A DNA stretch of 64,000 nt from Gracilibacillus orientalis. Lineage in GTDB: Bacteria > Bacillota > Bacilli > Bacillales > Amphibacillaceae. The notes under the pieces are model-generated. The model was not told where the DNA came from. It searched no databases and saw nothing but the letters and a program-made list of their open reading frames with translations. Location of the stretch: positions 558,001 through 622,000 of the forward strand of contig NZ_FOTR01000001.1 in the NCBI RefSeq assembly GCF_900114645.1, written 5' to 3'. Shown piece after piece: positions 3,832 to 60,262 of this stretch. Both the position numbers and the translations under genes were made by a program. Within the stretch, counting starts at the first letter, position 1. Each line of letters starts with the position of its first letter.

Positions 3832-3934
3832 ATAAAGTGAAACTTCCATCAGTCGATTAGTGGGGGTTTTCTCATCCCTCACTTAGACTTTTTTGATTCT
3901 TCTAAGTCTTGTAGTGGGGGCTTACCGCGATAAT
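3832..3934. repeat. Diverged copy of the ATAAAGTGA...GTGGGGG intergenic repeat
   Basis: The stretch begins ATAAAGTGAAAC and contains AGTGGGGGTTTT near one third. It repeats TAGTGGGGGCTTACCGCGAT near its end. The order and ends resemble the repeat copies at 27679, 30803, 33326 and 35685, but the inside differs and carries its own small stem (CTTAGAC with its near complement). It is probably an old or sister-family copy. It sits in a 670-bp gene-poor gap together with a long palindrome. Confidence 0.4.
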
Positions 3935-3960
3935 CAAGCCATACAAAGGAGTTGAAAACC

Positions 3961-27186: not shown

Positions 27187-27215
27187 GGCGAGAGTATATT
27201 TGCTCTCGCCTTTTT
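27187..27215 (+). terminator. Terminator after the rhamnogalacturonan lyase
   Basis: GGCGAGAG and CTCTCGCC make a GC-rich stem followed by TTTTT, 10 bp after the stop. Confidence 0.85.
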
Positions 27216-27413
27216 CATAAGACAAGAAAGTATATAACCATTGGTATCACAACTTTTTTATCACGGTAACTCCATGTAGTAATATTGACATGTTTATACA
27301 GCAACCCCTCCGCTTCGACTGCCCACTCCCCTTTCCATGAGCTTTTCTTATGTATATTTCCAGTGATATTACATCACATTATTACTGTGATGATATACAG
27401 AGGAGGAGTAACA

Positions 27414-27680
27414 TTGAAAAAAGGTAACAATATCTCCAGTTTGCAGGATCAAAACCAGCTTGCGCAAGCTCAACAGTCCATCCTGCATTTGCAGCGAGCA
27501 ATGAATCAGGCACAAAGTCATATGAATGAAGAAATTCTTGAGCAAATCAAGCATACAATGGATAGGGCTGAGCGTTCCCTGGTTCAAGCAGAGAATGTAA
27601 CCGATGATCAAAATGCACTAAACCTTGTACGACAAGAGTTAGTACAGCAACAACAAGCTTTCCATGACTTAACGCAATAA
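27414..27680 (+). CDS. Small helical protein of unknown function
   Basis: The TTG at 27414 has AGGAGGAG upstream and gives 88 residues rich in Gln, Glu and Ala with no hydrophobic segment. It looks like two or three amphipathic helices (LAQAQQSILHLQRAMNQAQ and so on), in the manner of small Bacillaceae proteins such as DUF2564, though I cannot confirm that. Its TAA stop coincides with the left end of a short repeat copy. Confidence 0.6.
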   Translation: MKKGNNISSLQDQNQLAQAQQSILHLQRAMNQAQSHMNEEILEQIKHTMDRAERSLVQAENVTDDQNALNLVRQELVQQQQAFHDLTQ

Positions 27681-27733
27681 AGTGAGACTATGATCAGTGG
27701 GGGTCTTACAGACGGGGTTAACACCGTGATAAA
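27679..27733 (+). repeat. Short-form copy A of the GTGAGAC/GTGGGGG repeat
   Basis: About 55 bp: AAAGTGAGACTATGATCAGT, then GGGGTCTTACAGACGGGG and CACCGTGATAAA. It equals the two ends of the long copies at 33326 and 35685 joined at AGTGGGGGT, with the inside missing. The left end overlaps the stop codon of the gene at 27414-27680. Confidence 0.8.
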
Positions 27734-27852
27734 ACAGGTAAGTGCTATTGCATAGAAATTGGGTTCTAATTCGACGTTTCTACGCACTGGAATTTTCACT
27801 CCATGGAATTTAAAAGCGTCAGACAGGCCTTTCGTCTGACGCGCATTTCTTA

Positions 27853-28833
27853 TTACCAAGCATATGCTTCTGGTGTCTGTCCTCCTGGGCCAGGGAAAAT
27901 GTTATCTAAACGATCAAGAATTTCATCATTCAACTTCACTTCAACTGCACGGAGAGACTTCTCTAATTGTTCTGCGGTTCGCACACCAATAATCGGTGCA
28001 ACAACTGCCGGATTGGCTAATAACCATGCTAATGCCACCGTATCCTCTCTCTCACCAATTTCCTTACACAAGTCACTAAATTGCTCCAATTGATGGCGCT
28101 GTTGTTCTGCGCGTTCTTTGTTATCACTGCTACGTGAATTCTTCGCTGGGTTTAATGCATTTCCACCTAATAAACCTCCATCTAACGGACTCCACGGTAC
28201 GACACCAACTCCATATCTTTTGGCAGCAGGTAATACTTCTAATTCAGGTAAACGGCAATTTAAGTTATATTTATGTTGTTCCATAATTATTCCCAAAAAA
28301 TTTCTCGATTTTGCATGTGCCTGCGCTTCTGCTAAAGCCCATCCAGGAAAATTACTGGAACCAACATAATCGATTTTTCCTTGATAATTCGCATTCTCAA
28401 ATGCCGGCCAAATTTCTTCCCATGATGTATGGCGGTCAATATGGTGCATCATGTAGATTTCAACATGATCTGTTTGTAACCTTCTTAATGAGTCCTCCAG
28501 ATGACGTCTTATTTTGTAAGCTGATAATCCAGGTTCATCATTTGGTCCGTAATTGGGATCAAACATCTTTTCATGCATCTTCGTCGCTAACACTACTTTT
28601 TCTCTGCGGTTACCACCTTGTCTAAACCATTTGCCGATTATTTTTTCTGTTAAACCGGCATTCTCTCCCCATCCGTAATTGTTAGCGGTGTCAAAATAAT
28701 TAATGCCGGCATCAAGTGCTGCATCCATGATTCGAAAGGCTTCTTTTTCCTCCGTACCCACTCCAAAATTCATTGTCCCTAAACAAAGTTTGCTCACTTG
28801 TAGCCCTGAGCGACCTAAATATGTATACTCCAT
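27853..28833 (-). CDS. Aldo/keto reductase
   Basis: I use the ATG at 28833 (GAGGTG 6 nt before), giving 326 residues beginning MEYTYLGRSGLQVSKLCLG. The tetrad is visible: Asp in YFDTANNYG, Tyr in the same motif, Lys in VLATKMHEK and His in YMMHHID. The C-terminal NADP site is also present (PIIGVRTAEQLEKSL). It reduces carbonyls of sugars or aldehydes with NADPH. The branch resembles AKRs of the YhdN/IolS group. Confidence 0.85.
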   Translation of the reverse strand: MEYTYLGRSGLQVSKLCLGTMNFGVGTEEKEAFRIMDAALDAGINYFDTANNYGWGENAGLTEKIIGKWFRQGGNRREKVVLATKMHEKMFDPNYGPNDEPGLSAYKIRRHLEDSLRRLQTDHVEIYMMHHIDRHTSWEEIWPAFENANYQGKIDYVGSSNFPGWALAEAQAHAKSRNFLGIIMEQHKYNLNCRLPELEVLPAAKRYGVGVVPWSPLDGGLLGGNALNPAKNSRSSDNKERAEQQRHQLEQFSDLCKEIGEREDTVALAWLLANPAVVAPIIGVRTAEQLEKSLRAVEVKLNDEILDRLDNIFPGPGGQTPEAYAW

Positions 28834-28885
28834 TCCCTTCACCTCTTTATCTTTTGTTTAAAATGTACCACCGCTTTATCGCGAA

Positions 28886-28899
28886 TGCAAACGTTACCG
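28886..28899. promoter_or_regulatory. Possible cre-like site between AKR and SDR genes
   Basis: TGCAAACGTTACCG matches the cre consensus at all but the last base. It lies between the two divergent oxidoreductase genes and could affect either. Confidence 0.3.
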
Positions 28900-28968
28900 T
28901 ACATCTTAATGTGTAAATACATTAAAAATGGGGAAAGTTTATCAAAAAGAAATAAGGAGGTATCACCC

Positions 28969-29754
28969 TTGAATCATCAATTTGAAGATAGAGTAGCTGT
29001 AGTAACCGGTGGGAGTTCAGGTATTGGGCGCGCTTCTGCCATCCAACTTGCAAAAGAAGGTGCCAAAGTTTGCTTAATGGATTTGAAAGAAGAACAAGCA
29101 GAAAAGGTGAAAAAAGAAATAGAAAATAACGGTGGGGAAGCTCTCATTACCGATGTTGATTTATCCGACCCTGCAAGAGTTGAAAAAGGAATGAAAGAAG
29201 TAGTCGACAACTGGGGAAGAATTGATATCGTTTTTGCAAATGGCGGGATAAATGGTGTCCTTGCACCAATAGAAGATCTAACTACCGAAGATTGGGACAA
29301 CACTATTAATACTAATTTAAAGGGAACCTTCCATACAATTAAATATGCAATACCTTATTTGAAAGAAAAAGGAGGTAGTGTAATCATCACAAGTTCAGTT
29401 AATGGTAACCGGATCTTTTCTAATTTCGGGATGTCAGCTTACAGTACATCCAAAGCAGGACAGATGGCCTTTGGCAAAATGGCGGCATTAGAATTAGCCA
29501 AGTATAAAATCAGAGTCAATATTATTTGCCCTGGTGCTATTAACACAAATATCGGGGAAAACACCGAGAAAACACCTGAATTAGATAAGATTGATATTCC
29601 TGTTGAATATCCAGAAGGAGATAAACCATTAGAACATCAACCAGGAAAGCCCGAGCAAGTTGCCAATCTTGTTACCTTCCTTGCCTCCGACCAATCCAGT
29701 CATATAACTGGCACCGAGCTGTTTATTGACGGCGCAGAATCGTTGCTGAAATAA
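28969..29754 (+). CDS. Short-chain dehydrogenase/reductase
   Basis: The TTG at 28969 follows AAGGAGG and gives 261 residues. It has the classical SDR motifs: cofactor loop TGGSSGIG near residue 14, an NGGINGV variant of the NNAG motif, catalytic Ser in ITSSVNG, YSTSK, and an IKYAIPYL segment. An acidic Asp after the second strand (CLMDLKE) suggests NAD rather than NADP. The substrate is unknown. It is divergent from the aldo/keto reductase. Confidence 0.85.
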   Translation: MNHQFEDRVAVVTGGSSGIGRASAIQLAKEGAKVCLMDLKEEQAEKVKKEIENNGGEALITDVDLSDPARVEKGMKEVVDNWGRIDIVFANGGINGVLAPIEDLTTEDWDNTINTNLKGTFHTIKYAIPYLKEKGGSVIITSSVNGNRIFSNFGMSAYSTSKAGQMAFGKMAALELAKYKIRVNIICPGAINTNIGENTEKTPELDKIDIPVEYPEGDKPLEHQPGKPEQVANLVTFLASDQSSHITGTELFIDGAESLLK

Positions 29755-29759
29755 TTTAT

Positions 29760-29797
29760 TAAGGCTTATCGTTATTCTTACGTGGCGATAAGCCTTA
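29760..29797 (+). terminator. Terminator after the SDR gene
   Basis: TAAGGCTTATCG pairs perfectly with CGATAAGCCTTA, and AT-rich sequence follows. The stem starts 6 bp after the stop. Confidence 0.7.
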
Positions 29798-29898
29798 ATT
29801 ATATTTGATATAATATGGAGAGTATCGTAAAATTATTTCCTAAAGGCAAAATTGTGATATTATATAATGAGAAGATGTAACGAATTGGAGGTTAGGAA

Positions 29899-30804
29899 AT
29901 GGGAAAGCGTTTGTTATTGTTTATATTAACGAATATCTTAGTGATGACGACGATTGTTATCGTATGGTCAGTTATCACTAGATATACAAATATTGGTGGA
30001 ACCATTCAGAGTGATGGTTCTATTGGTTACACTTCACTCATGGTCTTTAGTATGATAGTTGGTTTTGCTGGAGCTTTCATCTCATTAGCTATGTCTCGTT
30101 GGATAGCGAAGAAGATGATGAAAGTAAAAGTAATTGATCCGAGTCGTCCAGGATCAGCTCAAGAACGTGCAGTATATGAAAAAGTAGAACGATTATCCCG
30201 TGCTGCCGGATTAGTGCACACACCGGAAGTTGGGATTTATCAATCCAGAGAAGTGAATGCTTTTGCTACAGGACCAACGAAAAAACGTTCATTGGTTGCT
30301 GTTTCACAAGGGCTTTTAGAAACGATGGATGACGATGCTATAGAAGGTATTATCGCACACGAAGTAGCACACGTTGCTAATGGTGATATGGTTACAATGA
30401 CGCTTTTACAAGGTATTGTCAACACGTTTGTCGTGTTCTTCTCCCGAATTGCTGCCATTATCGTATCGCGGTTTGTTCGTTCAGAAATACAATGGGTCGT
30501 ACGATTTGCAGCCATTATTGTCTTTCAAATATTATTCTCTATTCTCGGAAGTATTGTCGTCAGTGCCTACTCCCGACACCGAGAATATCATGCGGACCGA
30601 GGTGGAGCGGATCTGGCCGGTCGCGACAAAATGGCACATGCATTACGCTCCTTAAAAATGCATGTCGATCGAGCAACAATTAAAGATCGTTCCGACGACT
30701 CTGCCATCCAAACGATGAAAATCAGCGGAAAAGGTAGCAAAATATCGTTATTCTCGTCACACCCACCATTAGAAGAACGCATTGCTAAACTAGAACAACG
30801 ATAA
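29899..30804 (+). CDS. htpX: HtpX membrane zinc metalloprotease
   Basis: A 301-residue M48B protease: two N-terminal TM helices (about 4-26 and 45-70), the zinc motif HEVAH (H154, E155, H158), two more hydrophobic segments (about 163-205), then the third zinc ligand in the [18 protein letters not shown] region. It removes damaged membrane proteins under heat or envelope stress. The stop TAA coincides with the left edge of a short repeat copy. Confidence 0.93.
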
Positions 30805-30855
30805 AGTGAGACTATGATCAGTGGGGGTCTTACAGACGTTTAGCACCGTGATAAA
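30803..30855 (+). repeat. Short-form copy B of the GTGAGAC/GTGGGGG repeat
   Basis: AAAGTGAGACTATGATCAGT, then GGGGGTCTTACAGACG and TTAGCACCGTGATAAA. It is nearly identical to copy A and lies between the htpX stop and the terminator at 30863-30897. The first bases supply or overlap the htpX TAA. Confidence 0.8.
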
Positions 30856-30862
30856 ATATAGC

Positions 30863-30897
30863 AAAGGGACAGAGGTGCATACCTCTGTCCCTTTTTA
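30863..30897 (+). terminator. Terminator downstream of htpX
   Basis: AAGGGACAGAGGT and ACCTCTGTCCCTT form a perfect 13-bp stem with a 4-nt loop and a TTTT tail. Confidence 0.85.
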
Positions 30898-30987
30898 TAC
30901 ACAGACAAACACGTTTATTTCCATCATCCACCTTATGCTTTTTTATTATACCTTTTAAACATAAGGATTTTTAGCAGAAATTAGATT

Positions 30988-31581
30988 TTAATGCTCTTCT
31001 TTCTTTGCAACAATAATGTATAGAAAATCAGTCGGATGCACTACCTGTGTTACACTGAGTCCTGCATTCTTCATTTCTTGTTCCATGACTGATGAAGTAA
31101 TTCTAGGATGGTTTGCATTATGGTTTTCCTGCTTTTCAAATTCAACACATACGAAATATCCACTAGATTTAAGGACACGTTTAATTTGTTTTAAAGCAGT
31201 AGGTAAATCCATAAGTTCATGTAAGACTAAGGAAGCTAATACAATGTCAACAGTCATATCATTTAACGGGATGCTATCAATACTACCTTGCAATGTTTGG
31301 ACATTTGTTATATTTTCTTTGTTTGCCTTGGCATTTACAATGTCTAACATGTTAGTATCTATATCTAATGCATACACTAACCCATCCACGATTTTAGCAG
31401 CTGGGATTGAAATATATCCTGTGCCTGCACCTAAATCTAAGATAGTATCATCTTTATTAACAGGAAACATTCGCAGTAGCTGTTCTGGCGGTATATCTCC
31501 TCTTCTTTTAGGATTATCAAGGAATTCAACTTTTTTTGCAAAATGTGCCATTCCTTTGGGACTAAACTCTTTGTTATCCAT
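30988..31581 (-). CDS. Class I SAM-dependent methyltransferase
   Basis: The ATG at 31581 has AAAAGGAG upstream, giving 197 residues. The SAM-binding motif ILDLGAGTGYISIPAA (about 48-63), an acidic residue at the end of strand 2 (YALDID) and VDIVLASLVLHEL (motif IV) are typical of UbiE/Methyltransf_11 proteins. The substrate is unknown. It is the last gene of an Rrf2/flavoprotein/methyltransferase group and so may respond to redox or electrophile stress. Confidence 0.8.
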   Translation of the reverse strand: MDNKEFSPKGMAHFAKKVEFLDNPKRRGDIPPEQLLRMFPVNKDDTILDLGAGTGYISIPAAKIVDGLVYALDIDTNMLDIVNAKANKENITNVQTLQGSIDSIPLNDMTVDIVLASLVLHELMDLPTALKQIKRVLKSSGYFVCVEFEKQENHNANHPRITSSVMEQEMKNAGLSVTQVVHPTDFLYIIVAKKEEH

Positions 31582-31622
31582 ATAAATCAATCTCCTTTTT
31601 AATTAATACGAAGTAAGTTCCT

Positions 31623-32519
31623 TTAAAAATCTTCATTTATTAAATCACCTATTACTCTACTAGCAACTTTGCTCCCTTCACTTGCAGCAACAATTAATTG
31701 AGGAAGTGCGAAAGTGCTATCTCCGCTGGCATAGATTCCTTCAATATTCGTAAGTCCCAAATCATCTGTTTCTATTCCACCCATCTTATTCATGACACAC
31801 CCTAAAGTCTCAGCCAAAGATGATGCTTGCCTTAGTTCACCAGCGACAAAACCTCCTTCCCTTTCGATTTCTTTACCATTCTTAAACTTCACCTTTTGCA
31901 AGTTGCCATTATCTCCTTGTAAACTTTCTATTTCATCTACCATAACCTTGATATTTTTCTTAGTTAATAAGTCTTCCTCCTCTTTTGAAAATATATTTTT
32001 TCCATTTGTACAAACAACGAGGTTATTGCTCCAATTAGAAACCATTTTTGTCAAATGCATCGCACGCTCGTTTTCTGAAATAACAACTAACCGGCGATCT
32101 TTTAATTCCCATCCATCACAAAACGGACAAACGAATAAGCTCGTACCATAAAAATCATGAATTCCTTCTATATCAGGCAGTACATCTTGAAGACCGGTAG
32201 CTACAATAACCTTTCTAGAACGATAATAATGCCCATCACTTGTTTGAATAATAAAGAATCCATTTTCTTTTTTGATATCAGTCACTCGTTGATTTTCTAT
32301 TGAAAGATTGGAGTATTTCTTCAAATCTTGCTTAGCAATTCTTTTAAATTCTGAAGGTTTGATACCATCTCTTGTTATAAATCCGTGAGATTCGTGGGTT
32401 ACAGCATTTCTAGGTTTATCATCGTCAAACAAGATGACATTCTTTTTTGCTCTCGCAAGGACAAGAGAAGCATTAAGGCCTGATGGTCCTCCTCCAATAA
32501 TTACGCAATCTAACAACAT
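31623..32519 (-). CDS. Thioredoxin-reductase-like FAD oxidoreductase
   Basis: A 298-residue flavoprotein: FAD motif VIIGGGPSGLNASLVLARA at the N-terminus, redox-active CPFCDG near 133-138, and a C-terminal ASGDSTFALPQLIVAASEG FAD loop. The stretch where true TrxR has a glycine-rich NADPH motif reads LVVISENERAMHLTK and lacks the GxGxxA pattern, so NADPH use is doubtful. The start follows AAAGGAGG. Its upstream region carries the same 28-bp motif as the Rrf2 gene. Confidence 0.85.
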   Translation of the reverse strand: MLLDCVIIGGGPSGLNASLVLARAKKNVILFDDDKPRNAVTHESHGFITRDGIKPSEFKRIAKQDLKKYSNLSIENQRVTDIKKENGFFIIQTSDGHYYRSRKVIVATGLQDVLPDIEGIHDFYGTSLFVCPFCDGWELKDRRLVVISENERAMHLTKMVSNWSNNLVVCTNGKNIFSKEEEDLLTKKNIKVMVDEIESLQGDNGNLQKVKFKNGKEIEREGGFVAGELRQASSLAETLGCVMNKMGGIETDDLGLTNIEGIYASGDSTFALPQLIVAASEGSKVASRVIGDLINEDF

Positions 32520-32545
32520 TTTATCTTCCTCCTTTTATAAAGTAC

Positions 32546-32573
32546 ATTAGAGACTCTTAATATCTATGATTGA
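32546..32573 (-). promoter_or_regulatory. Shared operator-like motif, copy 1 (flavoprotein promoter)
   Basis: ATTAGAGACTCTTAATATCT followed by ATGATTGA matches the motif at 33046-33073 at 23 of 28 positions. It lies 27 bp before the flavoprotein start. GAGAC/TCT half sites make it partly symmetric. It is the likely binding site of the Rrf2 repressor encoded next to it. Confidence 0.55.
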
Positions 32574-32595
32574 GGTAAAAAAATAATGTGATTAT

Positions 32596-33024
32596 TCATC
32601 GTTTATTCATGTTTTTTTCCAAGTCGATTTGTTCTGCAATATCAATAATGTATTGTTTGTCTAAATCATCTTTCATTTTTCTTTCTGCTTCAATCATTAC
32701 ATTTTCAATTAAACATTCTCCATTTTTATTTTCTTCATGTTCCAATGAACAGCTAAATAAGGTTGTTTCTCCTTCAATAGCATGAATTACATCTAAAAAT
32801 GAAATTTCATGAGAATGTTTTACAATACTATATCCTCCTTTGACACCAGGAGTTGATTCAATTAGTCCTGCTTTTACAAGTTTTGTTAATATCTTCGAAA
32901 GGTATGTTGAAGAAAGATTTTGGATTGTGGCTAATTGATCTACTCCAACAGACTTTCCCTTTGGTGTTAACGTTAAATATGCCATTGTGTGTAAAGCATA
33001 GTTTGTCGCTCTTGAATATTTCAT
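32596..33024 (-). CDS. Rrf2-family transcriptional regulator
   Basis: A 142-residue protein with a winged helix-turn-helix (MKYSRATNYALHTMAYL, then VDQLATIQNLSSTYLSKILTKL) and a Cys-containing loop FSCSLEHEENKNGEC near residues 90-103. NsrR/IscR-type iron-sulfur regulators have three Cys in this loop; here only two are seen, so thiol sensing (as in HypR or CymR-like members) is more likely than a standard cluster. It should control itself and the flavoprotein operon. Confidence 0.85.
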   Translation of the reverse strand: MKYSRATNYALHTMAYLTLTPKGKSVGVDQLATIQNLSSTYLSKILTKLVKAGLIESTPGVKGGYSIVKHSHEISFLDVIHAIEGETTLFSCSLEHEENKNGECLIENVMIEAERKMKDDLDKQYIIDIAEQIDLEKNMNKR

Positions 33025-33045
33025 TACTTTTCACCTCATAGATAT

Positions 33046-33073
33046 ATTAGAGACCTTTTATGTCTATAATTGA
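33046..33073 (-). promoter_or_regulatory. Shared operator-like motif, copy 2 (Rrf2 promoter)
   Basis: ATTAGAGACCTTTTATGTCT followed by ATAATTGA lies 22 bp before the Rrf2 start. It is the partner of the motif at 32546-32573 and suggests autoregulation. Confidence 0.55.
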
Positions 33074-33192
33074 TATTAAACGAAAATGGCATAAATCACA
33101 AGTTTTTTACTTAGATATTTTTTTTTAACCATGCAAAAAGACGATCATTATGATGACCGCCTGATTCCATTCTTGGCATATTAAAGAAGCAA

Positions 33193-33273
33193 TTATTTCT
33201 TTTTCGACTTTCCAAACAGACCTATTGCAACAGCTACGGCAATCCCTAAGGCAACCCATGAACCTATCCCCAT
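33193..33273 (-). CDS. Possible 26-residue membrane peptide
   Basis: The ATG at 33273 has GGGGTG 6 nt upstream. The product is one hydrophobic helix (GIGSWVALGIAVAVAIGLFG) with a basic KSKKK tail, as in many tiny bacterial membrane peptides. A second short frame (22 codons, 33111-33179) follows but has no ribosome site. Confidence 0.4.
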   Translation of the reverse strand: MGIGSWVALGIAVAVAIGLFGKSKKK

Positions 33274-33325
33274 TACCATCACCCCATTATAATGTTTATG
33301 CTATATTATACGATCTATAAATATT

Positions 33326-33476
33326 AAAGTGAGACTATGATCAGTGGGGGTTTTGACCCCAACTGATCATTAGCGAAACTCATCAGGGTGTTAGCGTCTG
33401 TTATCCTCCACTTAGCTTCCTTGTGTTACTTGAAGCTTGAAGTGGGGGTCTTACAGACGGTTAGCACCGTGATAAA
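33326..33476 (+). repeat. Long-form copy C of the GTGAGAC/GTGGGGG repeat
   Basis: About 151 bp beginning AAAGTGAGACTATGATCAGT and ending TTAGCACCGTGATAAA. The first hairpin is GATCAGTGGGG with CCCCAACTGATC. A second, longer imperfect stem pairs GTGTTAGCGTCTGTTATCC with the CAGACGGTTAGCAC end. AGTGGGGGT occurs twice inside as a direct repeat. It has no coding potential. Confidence 0.8.
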
Positions 33477-33493
33477 GTTTCACAAATCAACCA

Positions 33494-34087
33494 CTAGCTA
33501 CCGCTTTTTAAATTCCAAGTACATAAGCTTGTAACAATACCAACACAAATAATGGTTATAGTCGATAATAGCATGGTTTCTGTTGAAATAATTATTCCAC
33601 CAATCATTATAATTAACGCATCAATTATAAAAATAATAATACCAACATTCATTCTAGTTATTCTAGAAAGGAGTTGTGCCAATAGATCAGTTCCACCAGT
33701 ACTTGTCCTATAACGAAGCATGATACCAGTTCCAATCCCGATTAGCACCCCACCAAGAACTGAACTAACTACAGAAGGCAATTGAAATTTAGTTATGTAA
33801 GAATAATGTAAAGGAGCGAGGTAATCAATAGCAAAAGATGAGACCAGCAATCCGTGTAAACTGTTATAAAAGTATTCCCTTTGATACATCCAAGCTAATA
33901 TAAAAATTGGCACACTTAGAAAGATGATGACCAAACCAGCTTTTACACCTGCTAAGTATTTAAAAATTAAGCCTAATCCTATCATTCCTCCATCCAACAA
34001 TTTAAAAGGAATCAAGAAAAAGTTTACGCCAATCGCTAATAAGATACTGCCAATAATTATCGTATAAATTTTTTTAGTTATAAACAT
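33494..34087 (-). CDS. YitT/YczE-type membrane protein
   Basis: The ATG at 34087 follows TTGGAG and gives 197 residues with five or six hydrophobic helices. The family signatures are visible: FFLIPFKLLDGGMIGLGL near the start and GIGTGIMLRYRTSTGGTDLLAQLL in the middle. It lacks the C-terminal DUF2179 domain that most YitT proteins carry, so it is short for that branch. Its function is unknown. Confidence 0.75.
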   Translation of the reverse strand: MFITKKIYTIIIGSILLAIGVNFFLIPFKLLDGGMIGLGLIFKYLAGVKAGLVIIFLSVPIFILAWMYQREYFYNSLHGLLVSSFAIDYLAPLHYSYITKFQLPSVVSSVLGGVLIGIGTGIMLRYRTSTGGTDLLAQLLSRITRMNVGIIIFIIDALIIMIGGIIISTETMLLSTITIICVGIVTSLCTWNLKSGS

Positions 34088-34177
34088 ATCAATCATCTCC
34101 AAATTTCACTTGGATTATAGACATGTTTATTTATATGAATATAATGTGCCAATTTGAACCATACATTTGTTTATACT

Positions 34178-34332
34178 AAGAAAAGCGCAAAGCGCCCGCT
34201 TAGAAACGTAGCGGCTGGAGCGAATCAACTGAGATAAAGGAATCACGGTGAGTTTACGAACCGATGATGACTTATCGTAGGGTGATTCGTGAAGTCGCCT
34301 AGTTTCTGGGCGCTTGAAGCTAGACATCTCCG
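34178..34332. repeat. Palindrome-ended intergenic repeat (AAGCGCCC...GGGCGCTT)
   Basis: About 155 bp whose ends are inverted (GCGCCCGCTTAGAAAC and GTTTCTGGGCGCTT, allowing for a 4-base bulge). Internal GAATCAC/GTGATTC also pair. Elements with AAGCGC...GCGCTT ends recur between genes in Bacillaceae. A shorter relative lies at 59022-59135. No ORF is inside. Confidence 0.65.
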
Positions 34333-34377
34333 TTTATACTTTCTTACCTTACTAAAAAAAAGACTGGAGACCAGCCT

Positions 34378-34566
34378 TTATATTACATATTTCTGTAATT
34401 TTTGTAGCATACCTTTTGCTTTTACAGAACCATTATTTTCTAATTTTTTCATAAGTCTCTGTATTAATTGATCATCACACTTTTCAAGAATAAGAAACGC
34501 TTTTATTTCATTAGAAGTCATAATCTTCCGATACAATTTGGAGACACTTCTCTCATCGTCAACCAT
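34378..34566 (-). CDS. Small basic hypothetical protein
   Basis: A 62-residue frame, Lys-rich and helical (SVSKLYRKIMTSNEIKAFLI then LIQRLMKKLENNGS). The only upstream site is AAAGGGG, 17 nt from the ATG, so initiation is weak as read. A small stem (CTGGAGACCAG) follows the stop. I do not recognise it; it may be a fragment of a longer helical protein. Confidence 0.4.
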   Translation of the reverse strand: MVDDERSVSKLYRKIMTSNEIKAFLILEKCDDQLIQRLMKKLENNGSVKAKGMLQKLQKYVI

Positions 34567-34697
34567 TTTTTGAAGATGAAACCCCTTTCAATATAATTTA
34601 ATTTCATTATATATGTTTTTATTTTAATTGTAAACCGAAGACAATTCCACTTTATATTTACTTCTCCTTCAACTACTTGTCATAAATAAGCTGTGGC

Positions 34698-35123
34698 TCA
34701 GTGATTGTCTTGTTCATAAAATTCAACATAGAAAGGATGAAGACTATCATTTAAACAATATTCCATTCTTTGCTTGAAATTGCCCCAAGTAATCATTTCT
34801 AATGCTTGATGAATGGGAAAGAAACCTACTTCTAAACTTTCAGGACTAGTAGTTAGTTTTCCACCAATTGCCTTACCCACAAACAACGTGTTACAAATGG
34901 AACGACTTACATATTGAAAAATTCCACAAAATTTTTCGATTTCAATATCAATACCTGACTCTTCCTTTGTCTCCCTAATTGCAGCACTCTTTAATGACTC
35001 TCCTTCTTCTACTTGGCCACCAGGCATTTCCCAACCTCTTCTAGGACTTTTTATTAATAAAACTTCATTCTTTTCGTTTAAAACAAAAGTAGCAGCTGAA
35101 ACAATATGTTTTGGTATTGCCAT
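34698..35123 (-). CDS. Nudix hydrolase
   Basis: A 141-residue protein with a complete Nudix box (GX5EX7REUXEEXGU) read as GGQVEEGESLKSAAIRETKE followed by ESGI, at about residues 35-58. It hydrolyses nucleoside diphosphate-X compounds with Mg2+; the substrate of this one is not evident. The start has GAGGAGTGG upstream. Confidence 0.88.
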   Translation of the reverse strand: MAIPKHIVSAATFVLNEKNEVLLIKSPRRGWEMPGGQVEEGESLKSAAIRETKEESGIDIEIEKFCGIFQYVSRSICNTLFVGKAIGGKLTTSPESLEVGFFPIHQALEMITWGNFKQRMEYCLNDSLHPFYVEFYEQDNH

Positions 35124-35166
35124 AATTCCACTCCTCTATAATCAAAACATAATTAAATTCGCCTCA

Positions 35167-35340
35167 TTAAAACATAGAATTAGCAATCATAGCCAATATT
35201 CCCATTAGGATCATCCCACCGAACAGGAAATATCCAATTATTTTGATTGGAAGTGGAAGTCGGCCACCTTTATTTGTAGGAGCTCCCTCTATATTTTGTT
35301 TATGCTTCATTACATCATTAAAAGGTTTGTATGGTGCCAT
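35167..35340 (-). CDS. Small membrane protein, 57 residues
   Basis: The ATG at 35340 has AAAAGGGG 7 nt upstream. A polar N-terminal half (APYKPFNDVMKHKQ) is followed by one hydrophobic helix (IIGYFLFGGMILMGILAMI). I have no functional match. It is the first of three tiny membrane-protein frames in tandem on this strand. Confidence 0.55.
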   Translation of the reverse strand: MAPYKPFNDVMKHKQNIEGAPTNKGGRLPLPIKIIGYFLFGGMILMGILAMIANSMF

Positions 35341-35362
35341 TTAAATCCCCTTTTTAAATAAA

Positions 35363-35458
35363 TCATTTTCTGTTTTTAAAACCATTAAATAAAATAAACG
35401 ATACTAATAGTAAAAGGACAAATCCTACTCCAAGTACTACGTTAATTATCATTTCCAA
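35363..35458 (-). CDS. Tiny membrane peptide, 31 residues
   Basis: The TTG at 35458 sits 7 nt after GGAGGG. The product is nearly all one helix (VVLGVGFVLLLLVSFILF) with a basic FKNRK end. The ribosome site and clean membrane topology argue for a real gene, as for many sub-50-residue membrane peptides; its role is unknown. Confidence 0.5.
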   Translation of the reverse strand: MEMIINVVLGVGFVLLLLVSFILFNGFKNRK

Positions 35459-35557
35459 ATAGCAACCCTCCAAGTTTAAAGCTTTATGTTCCTATTACAC
35501 TTATCTCCTGAATAGAGAGAGTTATCTCGCGAACAGAAACTAGTGTCTTGTAAAACT

Positions 35558-35899
35558 TTACTTAGCACTTTGGATTTTGCTTAGCATGATACCATTTGCC
35601 ACAACTCCAATTAATCCAGTAAACACAAAGATGTATGCTACAAACAAAAGTGTTGAAGTAAGTGATTCAGTTAGTATTCTAAATAAAGTGAGACTATGAT
35701 CAGTGGGGGGTTTTGACTCCCCACTGATCATTTGCGAAACTTATCAGGGTGTTAGCGTCTGTTATCCCCCACTTTGCTTCCATGTGTTACTTGAAGCTTG
35801 AAATGGGGGGATTACAGACGGTTAGCACCGTGGTACACCAACAGCAAAAATAAGAAAACTACATATAATTGTAGTGATTGTTCGAACCTTACTTTTCAT
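35558..35899 (-). pseudogene. Small membrane protein gene split by a repeat insertion
   Basis: An ATG at 35899 behind GGAGGG opens a frame (MKSKVRTITTIICSFLIF...) that runs into repeat copy D at 35832. Beyond the other end of the repeat the frame resumes and runs to a TAA at 35558 (ending NGIMLSKIQSAK). Taking the repeat out at one of two adjacent positions gives an uninterrupted 63-residue protein with two membrane helices. The insertion makes the gene non-functional as read. Confidence 0.65.
35685..35832 (+). repeat. Long-form copy D of the GTGAGAC/GTGGGGG repeat, inserted in a gene
   Basis: About 148 bp, close to copy C. The first hairpin is perfect here (GATCAGTGGGG with CCCCACTGATC). 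The second stem pairs GTGTTAGCGTCTGTTATCCC with its 3' partner. It splits the small gene at 35558-35899. Its right end reads GTGGTACA where the other copies have GTGATAAA. Confidence 0.8.
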
Positions 35900-36068
35900 T
35901 TTCAAGCCCTCCGAAAAAGTAAATTATTTCCTAAATAAAATGTTAACATATCCTCTTACCATTGTTAACATCATCCCTTAAAAGCTCCTACCATTAATAT
36001 TCTATTTTTGAAAAAGGTTGTCTTTTTATATATGATGAAAGTAATAATGATGAAAGAAGGGATTTCAT

Positions 36069-59210: not shown

Positions 59211-59325
59211 TTCCTTGGAAAAGTATCATTCTTCCTTGGAAAAATGAGTATTTCCAAGGAAGAGATAGAGAATTCCAAGGAAGCGGAGCACTTTTCCAAG
59301 GAAGGGAACAAGAATTCAAAGGAAG
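59211..59325. repeat. Six TTCCWWGGAA palindromes phased at 21 bp
   Basis: Units start at 59211, 59232, 59252, 59273, 59294 and 59315 (spacings 21, 20, 21, 21, 21). The first two read TTCCTTGGAA (the second extended by A's), the next three TTCCAAGGAA and the last TTCAAAGGAA, so the orientation flips between units 2 and 3. The linkers differ in sequence while the spacing is held. Confidence 0.75.
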
Positions 59326-59606: not shown

Positions 59607-60126
59607 TAATATCAACCTCTGCTTTCTTCATTATACAATCCCTTGAGCAATATAAAAGCAAGTAGTAGCAAACCTTCAGTCCCAGACATATGGTGTTAAA
59701 GCATCAGCAACTGTATTTTAAACTTTATCTGAAGGTCCCATTAAAATTTAAATTATCATGTAAGAGTTTAAGGATTTTTAAATCCAAACATACCAACGAA
59801 CGCAAATAGTGTATTTAAAAATAAAAATAGTACTCCAAGAATAATTAACAATATAGCATCATAGAGTAATGTTTCTATTGTTACAAGAGTTGAATTTTGT
59901 ATTTTTATTATAATCCACCACTCTTCTTAATTTACATTTTTTTCTGATTAAACCTAAAAATGTTACATTATTTATAATAGTATATTAGATTAAGATGAAC
60001 AGGTAAATAAATACATGTTTCTTATAATTTGTTAAGAAATAAGAAAAGTGGATCAAAATGGAGAAGAAAAAATGTAACACATCCGCAAAAAAATATTTAT
60101 CCCCTATTTTAAGTATTCATCCTGCC
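59607..60126. other. Gene-poor AT-rich stretch
   Basis: No convincing gene. A hydrophobic minus-strand frame ending near 59777 (residues such as LLIILGVLFLFLNTLFAFVG) lacks a usable start codon with a ribosome site and may be a remnant. The rest shows no promoter, repeat or RNA structure that I can defend. Confidence 0.4.
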
Positions 60127-60262
60127 TTTTCATTGCCTGAATACCGATTATGCATTTTTAAAAGGGATTCACTCTCCTTTTCCAATGCTCGAATAACGAT
60201 TATACGCTTTTTTAAGGGATTCACTCTCCTTTTCAAGTGTACGAATCCCTATTAACGTTTCG
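60127..60262. repeat. Tandem repeat, period 51-52 bp
   Basis: Three units start at 60127, 60178 and 60230, each beginning TTTTC and containing a CGATTAT- or CCTATTA-type core; the first two end in GGGATTCACTCTCC. The third is partial. Read on the minus strand each unit would encode a Lys/Glu-rich helix (LEKESESLKKAYNRY), but the frame is not kept, so this is either a repeat of intergenic origin or a decayed coiled-coil gene. Confidence 0.6.

Follow-up and report, generated by a model that had tools for sequence, protein, structure and literature searches.

The closest known counterpart of the repeat described here is likely bcr1 of the Bacillus cereus group, of which our repeat would be a relative or a parallel, as judged on descriptions. 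Together with bcr2 and bcr3, bcr1 is described as an intergenic element of about 147-167 bp with a conserved fold, TTTAT at its ends, tens of copies and no gene, and is presumed to be mobile (PMC6542083, PMC2267715, PMC3446304, PMC8725734). Compared by description only, our repeat is alike in size, terminal TTTAT, intergenic location, copy number, fold and lack of a gene. Plasmid searches with four members returned no B. cereus record, and a literature search that included the strings of the repeat yielded, among the matches listed, no description outside the B. cereus group and none with the four longer strings.

Two other systems offer points of comparison. The PATEs and IS200/IS605 elements (IS608, ISDra2), as described in the sources cited, share with our repeat a fixed pentanucleotide, the use of the lagging-strand template and, as it seems, subterminal hairpins (PMC6006769, PMC7290912); a PATE, however, is defined by an insertion sequence with the same ends, and no TnpA or TnpB gene with the ends of the repeat was found in the loci searched. 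REP/BIME sequences are presented as hairpin repeats between genes, whose spread is ascribed to a Y1 protein, TnpA-REP (RAYT), that works on single-stranded DNA (PMC8266576). Our repeat is likewise an intergenic hairpin repeat, but differs in its size of about 155 bp, its TTTAT rule and its precise insertion product.

A repeat family in Gracilibacillus and the Bacillales

The window, by which we mean the whole 64-kb stretch analysed, holds the two long and two short copies within 8 kb that the original prediction had placed there, and a fifth, divergent member additional to these four (Table 1). Its description of the copies was largely borne out. Each long copy folds into two hairpins, with z-scores of -7.8 to -8.2 against shuffles on either strand and none of 200 shuffles as good, whereas the short copies, which lack those hairpins, score -0.1 and -2.2 on the strand as read. 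Taking out of the long form everything that separates the two AGTGGGGGT copies yields the short form. As for the pentamers said to border most copies, read before GTGAGAC and after CACCGTG, each short copy has ATAAA on either side, long copy 1 has TTAAA on the left and ATAAA on the right, and long copy 2 has ATAAA on the left and GTACA on the right. A reading of the repeat as a terminator was rejected, no terminator-like match falling on any of the four copies. The window also contains, at about 34177-34361, a second dispersed repeat of some 184 bp with many copies in the source and related genomes and, at 59211-59325 and 60115-60218, direct and inverted TTCCAAGGAA repeats plus a 52-bp tandem pair.

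Table 1. Location of the repeat copies, their parts and related loci (window coordinates unless a contig or locus is named)
Feature	Position	Strand	Details
Fifth member, divergent	3833-3947	+	model R2 E 2.6e-5; R1 E 0.0035
Short copy 1	27677-27733	+	left border ATAAA 27677-27681; remainder, with the right border, as far as 27733
Short copy 2	30801-30855	+	ATAAA borders 30801-30805 (left), 30851-30855 (right)
Long copy 1	33324-33476	+	left TTAAA 33324-33328, right ATAAA 33472-33476
Hairpin 1 of long copy 1	33338-33371 (approximate ends)	+	folding and covariation
First AGTGGGGGT of long copy 1	33343-33351	+	inside hairpin-1 5' arm; one long-to-short deletion end
Hairpin 2 of long copy 1	33382-33473 (approximate ends)	+	folding and covariation
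Second AGTGGGGGT of long copy 1	33441-33449	+	inside hairpin-2 3' arm; other deletion end
Long copy 2	35683-35837	+	left ATAAA 35683-35687, right GTACA 35833-35837
Carrier repeat	G000:C19:78640-79600 and seven more places		eight copies aligned
Larger-variant loci	L145, L146, L148, L150, L162, L166, L167, L174, L177, L188, L192, L203

Searches of the source genome and its relatives, which had been proposed as a check, extend the family far beyond four copies and across genera. The source genome (G000) contains 68 exact occurrences of AAAGTGAGAC, as opposed to 9 of a reversed control; BLAST with long copy 1 gives 54 matches, and model R1, built from 22 source-genome copies, gives 43 at E 1e-4. 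From the stretches around AAAGTGAGAC and the BLAST matches we collected 77 copies or remnants (83 intervals minus 6 opposite-strand overlaps), of which 24 measure at least 125 bp, 40 at most 60 bp and 13 fall in between. They form two subfamilies, one pairing ATGATCAGTGG with TTACAGACGG and the other TTCCATCAGTGG with TTACGGACGA, each with long and short forms. Within Gracilibacillus, R1 matches occur in 15 of 17 genomes, at 0 to 134 copies per genome with 150 candidates scored in each. Descriptions of bcr1 confine it to the B. cereus group, whereas R1 with stricter filters finds our two-hairpin form of about 155 bp in 87 of the 397 genomes sampled across the order, representing 49 of 136 genera. 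Among the matches listed, most span 150-160 bp, and the hosts named, from loci built on 80 of 119 stretches, include at least Oceanobacillus, Lysinibacillus, Cytobacillus, Niallia, Peribacillus, Psychrobacillus and Ectobacillus. Members were also seen in a 4.6-kb contig labelled Modestobacter (L184) and in the Klebsiella grimontii plasmid CP079755.1, possibly through contamination or mislabelling.

Insertion sites, hairpins and replication strand

The repeat is a mobile element, since the orthologous positions of related genomes can lack it exactly and then show a single ATAAA, while filled sites carry ATAAA at both ends. G007 and G014 precisely lack long copy 2, and G012 lacks short copy 1, with a single ATAAA at each join; the site of short copy 2 in G014 keeps a GTGAGAC-like remnant, and the flanks of long copy 1 in G012, G007 and G014 are too diverged for scoring. 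In the comparison with G012 (about 86% identical), which covered 1.46 Mb of that genome and was judged by eye, both flanks could be placed for 29 of the 77 source-genome copies. Ten of these are cleanly empty in G012 (copies 4, 5, 8, 24, 30, 32, 34, 36, 62 and 73) and two likely so (13 and 31); copy 12 faces a filled site in the opposite orientation at TTTATAAA, copy 33 is short in both genomes but of different subfamilies, and the other 15, with diverged flanks or larger changes, stand outside the empty-site count. Copy 34 interrupts a reading frame; in G012 this frame is uninterrupted over 217 codons from stop to stop and looks HAD-like by eye. The presence/absence variation that the original prediction had made a test of mobility is thus found, and its statement that no target duplication is visible needs rewording, for empty sites hold one ATAAA and filled sites two. 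The target rule holds widely: among the 113 copies with clear ends out of 121 full-length matches, ATAAA borders the left end in 102, the right in 90 and both in 83. Tandem copies with one common ATAAA occur at 7 of 30 loci, and arrays reach three in a row in Lysinibacillus parviboronicapiens and seven in G002. Insertion thus lies 3' of a fixed pentanucleotide with no further target duplication, as in IS200/IS605 elements, and the orientation bias towards the lagging-strand template, set out below, is a second trait in common with them.

The two hairpins covary. In an alignment of 30 copies from 30 genomes, built without structure and with the structure then predicted from the same alignment, 95.7% of cells pair, a value that falls to 40-51% once the partners are slid, and 19 of 35 pairs show both-sided changes (shuffle mean 11.4; none of 500 shuffles reaches 19). 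A TAG adjoining hairpin 1 is invariant (30 of 30), as is the AC after it; the TAG could be a guide sequence. Larger variants of 203-258 nt carry extra hairpins in the hairpin-1 loop or between the hairpins, several of which end in an RTCCTG-type loop.

In the source genome, the orientation of the element follows replication, whichever way the neighbouring genes point. With the leading strand assigned from GC skew and gene direction, the copies that run against it, as read here, number 79 of 101 in G011 (17 of 118 excluded because their zone gave no clear strand), 53 of 69 in G012 (7 of 76 excluded) and 54 of 65 in the source genome (12 of 77 excluded). The bias in the latter persists among neighbours co-directional with the fork (17 of 20), head-on (11 of 14) and mixed (23 of 27), and the corresponding counts in the G012 stretch are 9 of 13, 4 of 5 and 13 of 14. 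A half-chromosome axis fitted to orientation alone accounts for 86 of 107 copies in G011 and 56 of 73 in G012, where it falls at 0.00 and 2.54 Mb and the skew turns there too; in other genera it accounts for 58 of 64 in G351 and 29 of 31 in G258, based on the copies among the matches listed (77 of 122 and 32 of 43, respectively). Tandems were collapsed before counting, no count is equalled in more than 1 of 20,000 permutations, and 3-kb skew samples agree in sign at 7 of 9 places in both G351 and G258. Orientation thus follows replication in five genomes of three genera, at 77-94%. Because the element as read opposes the leading strand, the complementary strand bearing TTTAT is the lagging-strand template. 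The sources cited report targeting of that template for IS608 and ISDra2 (PMC6006769) and, in one studied genome, an IS605 without such a bias, with 10 of 22 copies on the leading strand (PMC7290912).

Border pentamers alone fit a target duplication and an element-borne end equally, and the single ATAAA of empty sites against the two of filled ones is also what a classical MITE would leave if a DDE transposase acting on double strands inserted it strictly at ATAAA/TTTAT and duplicated these 5 bp. In addition, where both borders deviate they are alike in 2 of 4 copies, although both of these lie in tandem arrays and are not decisive. We nevertheless consider a MITE quite unlikely, given that the GTGAGAC and CACCGTG ends are not inverted copies of each other and no matching terminal inverted repeats exist, that the element forms two separate covarying hairpins, and that its replication-strand bias is strong in five genomes. 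The structured-RNA alternative raised in the original prediction, here a conserved structural or regulatory RNA gene that is multicopy by chance, draws on the strong folding and covariation and on the report that about half of the bcr1-bcr18 copies lie within transcripts in B. cereus (PMC3446304). Covariation had indeed been named as a mark of such a gene, but it was found alongside presence/absence variation, and it is not decisive for RNA, since recognition of the hairpins in single-stranded DNA would produce such covariation as well. Precise boundaries at variable sites, insertion within an open reading frame (copy 34), tandem copies and an orientation that tracks replication and not gene direction all speak against an RNA gene, as does the lack of an Rfam match: the whole window gives none at gathering score, and a relaxed search of 33200-36000 gives chance-level matches only. 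We thus regard this reading as very improbable.

Origin of the short form

The most likely origin of short copies is a deletion in place that joins the two AGTGGGGG arms, because a single site within a carrier repeat holds long, short and empty versions. This carrier is non-coding, spans several hundred bp and has two sites at which the element occurs. Among the eight copies analysed, the first site (A) holds two long forms, two short forms, three other deletions and one empty version (with TTTAA), and the copy on C27 has the short form at both sites. A remnant of the carrier lies in the window at 27210-27300, where two outer parts are joined and nearly all of the interior is missing. Deletion between short repeats flanking palindromes is a known slippage geometry, and slippage may well be the route here. 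Shortening in place is demonstrated by one prophage-edge insertion common to 25 of 28 IMG/VR loci outside Gracilibacillus, of which 2 are full (159 bp) and 23 shortened. In 15 of the latter (108-111 bp) the 3' arm of hairpin 1 and the linker are gone, and in 8 (100-102 bp) most of hairpin 2 is; these deletions differ from that between the AGTGGGGG arms. The loci encode a heterocycloanthracin-type precursor (TIGR03601, 137.3 bits, L395) and an AimR regulator (L385), which presumably point to hosts of the B. cereus group; no phage match was found for the locus.

That the short form might instead be a mobile subfamily in its own right is suggested by its greater abundance, with 40 of 77 copies at or below 60 bp against 24 at or above 125 bp, by the clean empty sites of some short copies in G012 (5, 8, 36 and 73), and by an orientation like that of long copies (30 of 39 versus 15 of 17). 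We consider such a subfamily unlikely, however, as long and short versions occupy the same sites of the carrier repeat and as other internal deletions occurred in place at the prophage edge. Short copies are also more worn than long ones, with mean edits of 3.11 versus 1.44 in subfamily A and 5.5 versus 5.0 in subfamily B. Finally, short forms in Ectobacillus, Peribacillus, Gottfriedia, Bacillus sp. MRMR6 and the Modestobacter-labelled contig bear the ends of their own lineage, which argues for a repeated origin.

A single-strand model and its missing partner

We propose that the repeat is probably a non-autonomous element, some 155 bp long, which transposes in single-stranded form, and that its short form is mostly a scar. 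The strand with TTTAT at both ends (the - strand here) would fold into two hairpins, one near each end, which a putative HUH-type transposase supplied in trans would recognise when single-stranded. As a replication fork passes, the element would be joined to the 3' side of a TTTAT on the lagging-strand template, adjoining this pre-existing TTTAT and bringing a second, so that a later copy could land beside it and give tandem arrays with one common pentamer. Deletion from the AGTGGGGG of the hairpin-1 5' arm to the AGTGGGGG of the hairpin-2 3' arm would remove both hairpins in place and leave a short form of about 53 bp, presumably immobile. Several observations run against this model, the first being the missing transposase described below. 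On the TTTAT strand, hairpin 2 starts some 3 nt from the left end, which is closer than the left-end spacing in IS608. The border pentamers are ambiguous, as noted above. No long/short pairs were seen at orthologous sites between G000 and G012, and copy 33 is short in both of these genomes yet of different subfamilies.

The original prediction had likened the repeat to non-autonomous derivatives of IS200/IS605 elements. Mobility and a single-strand mode of insertion agree with the empty and filled sites, the ATAAA/TTTAT rule and the strand bias; the partner that would establish membership did not turn up. In the source genome the search gave a single Y1 fragment, which is broken, and no match to TnpB. 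Of 49 TnpA matches in Gracilibacillus, the loci of 30 were tested, and none is bounded on both sides by the ends of the repeat; no TnpA or TnpB with such ends was found in five loci of other genera. At one locus (L084), a weak copy (2028-2118, E 0.25) lies beside, not around, TnpA. Among the matches listed, the ends of IS200-type copies in Gracilibacillus differ from those of the repeat, and no repeat copy adjoins the short Y1 proteins of G258 and G369 (L427, L428), which we read as RAYT-like. Hence, we liken the repeat to IS200/IS605 PATEs as a mechanism and do not file it as a member. Since most source-genome copies are at most 95% alike (two pairs are closer, one of 100% inside the carrier repeat, the other of 97.9% in tandem), the partner may since have been lost from this genome.

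Y1_Tnp matches occur in 12 of 17 Gracilibacillus genomes, and their distribution departs from that of the repeat: G005 has 15 matches and zero copies, whereas G002, G007, G012 and G013, with 31, 42, 76 and 90 copies, have no match, nor does G351 with 122. Because copy-rich genomes may thus lack a Y1 transposase match, we also considered an order-wide Bacillales hairpin family, including or paralleling bcr1, that would insert as a single strand at replication forks by means of an enzyme outside Y1 (PF01797) or of a host fork enzyme, a reading we hold as tentative and somewhat unlikely. The replication-strand rule makes the single-strand model testable, and the missing transposase offers a concrete search target. 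More generally, the wide spread of the repeat suggests a kind of element common to much of the Bacillales.
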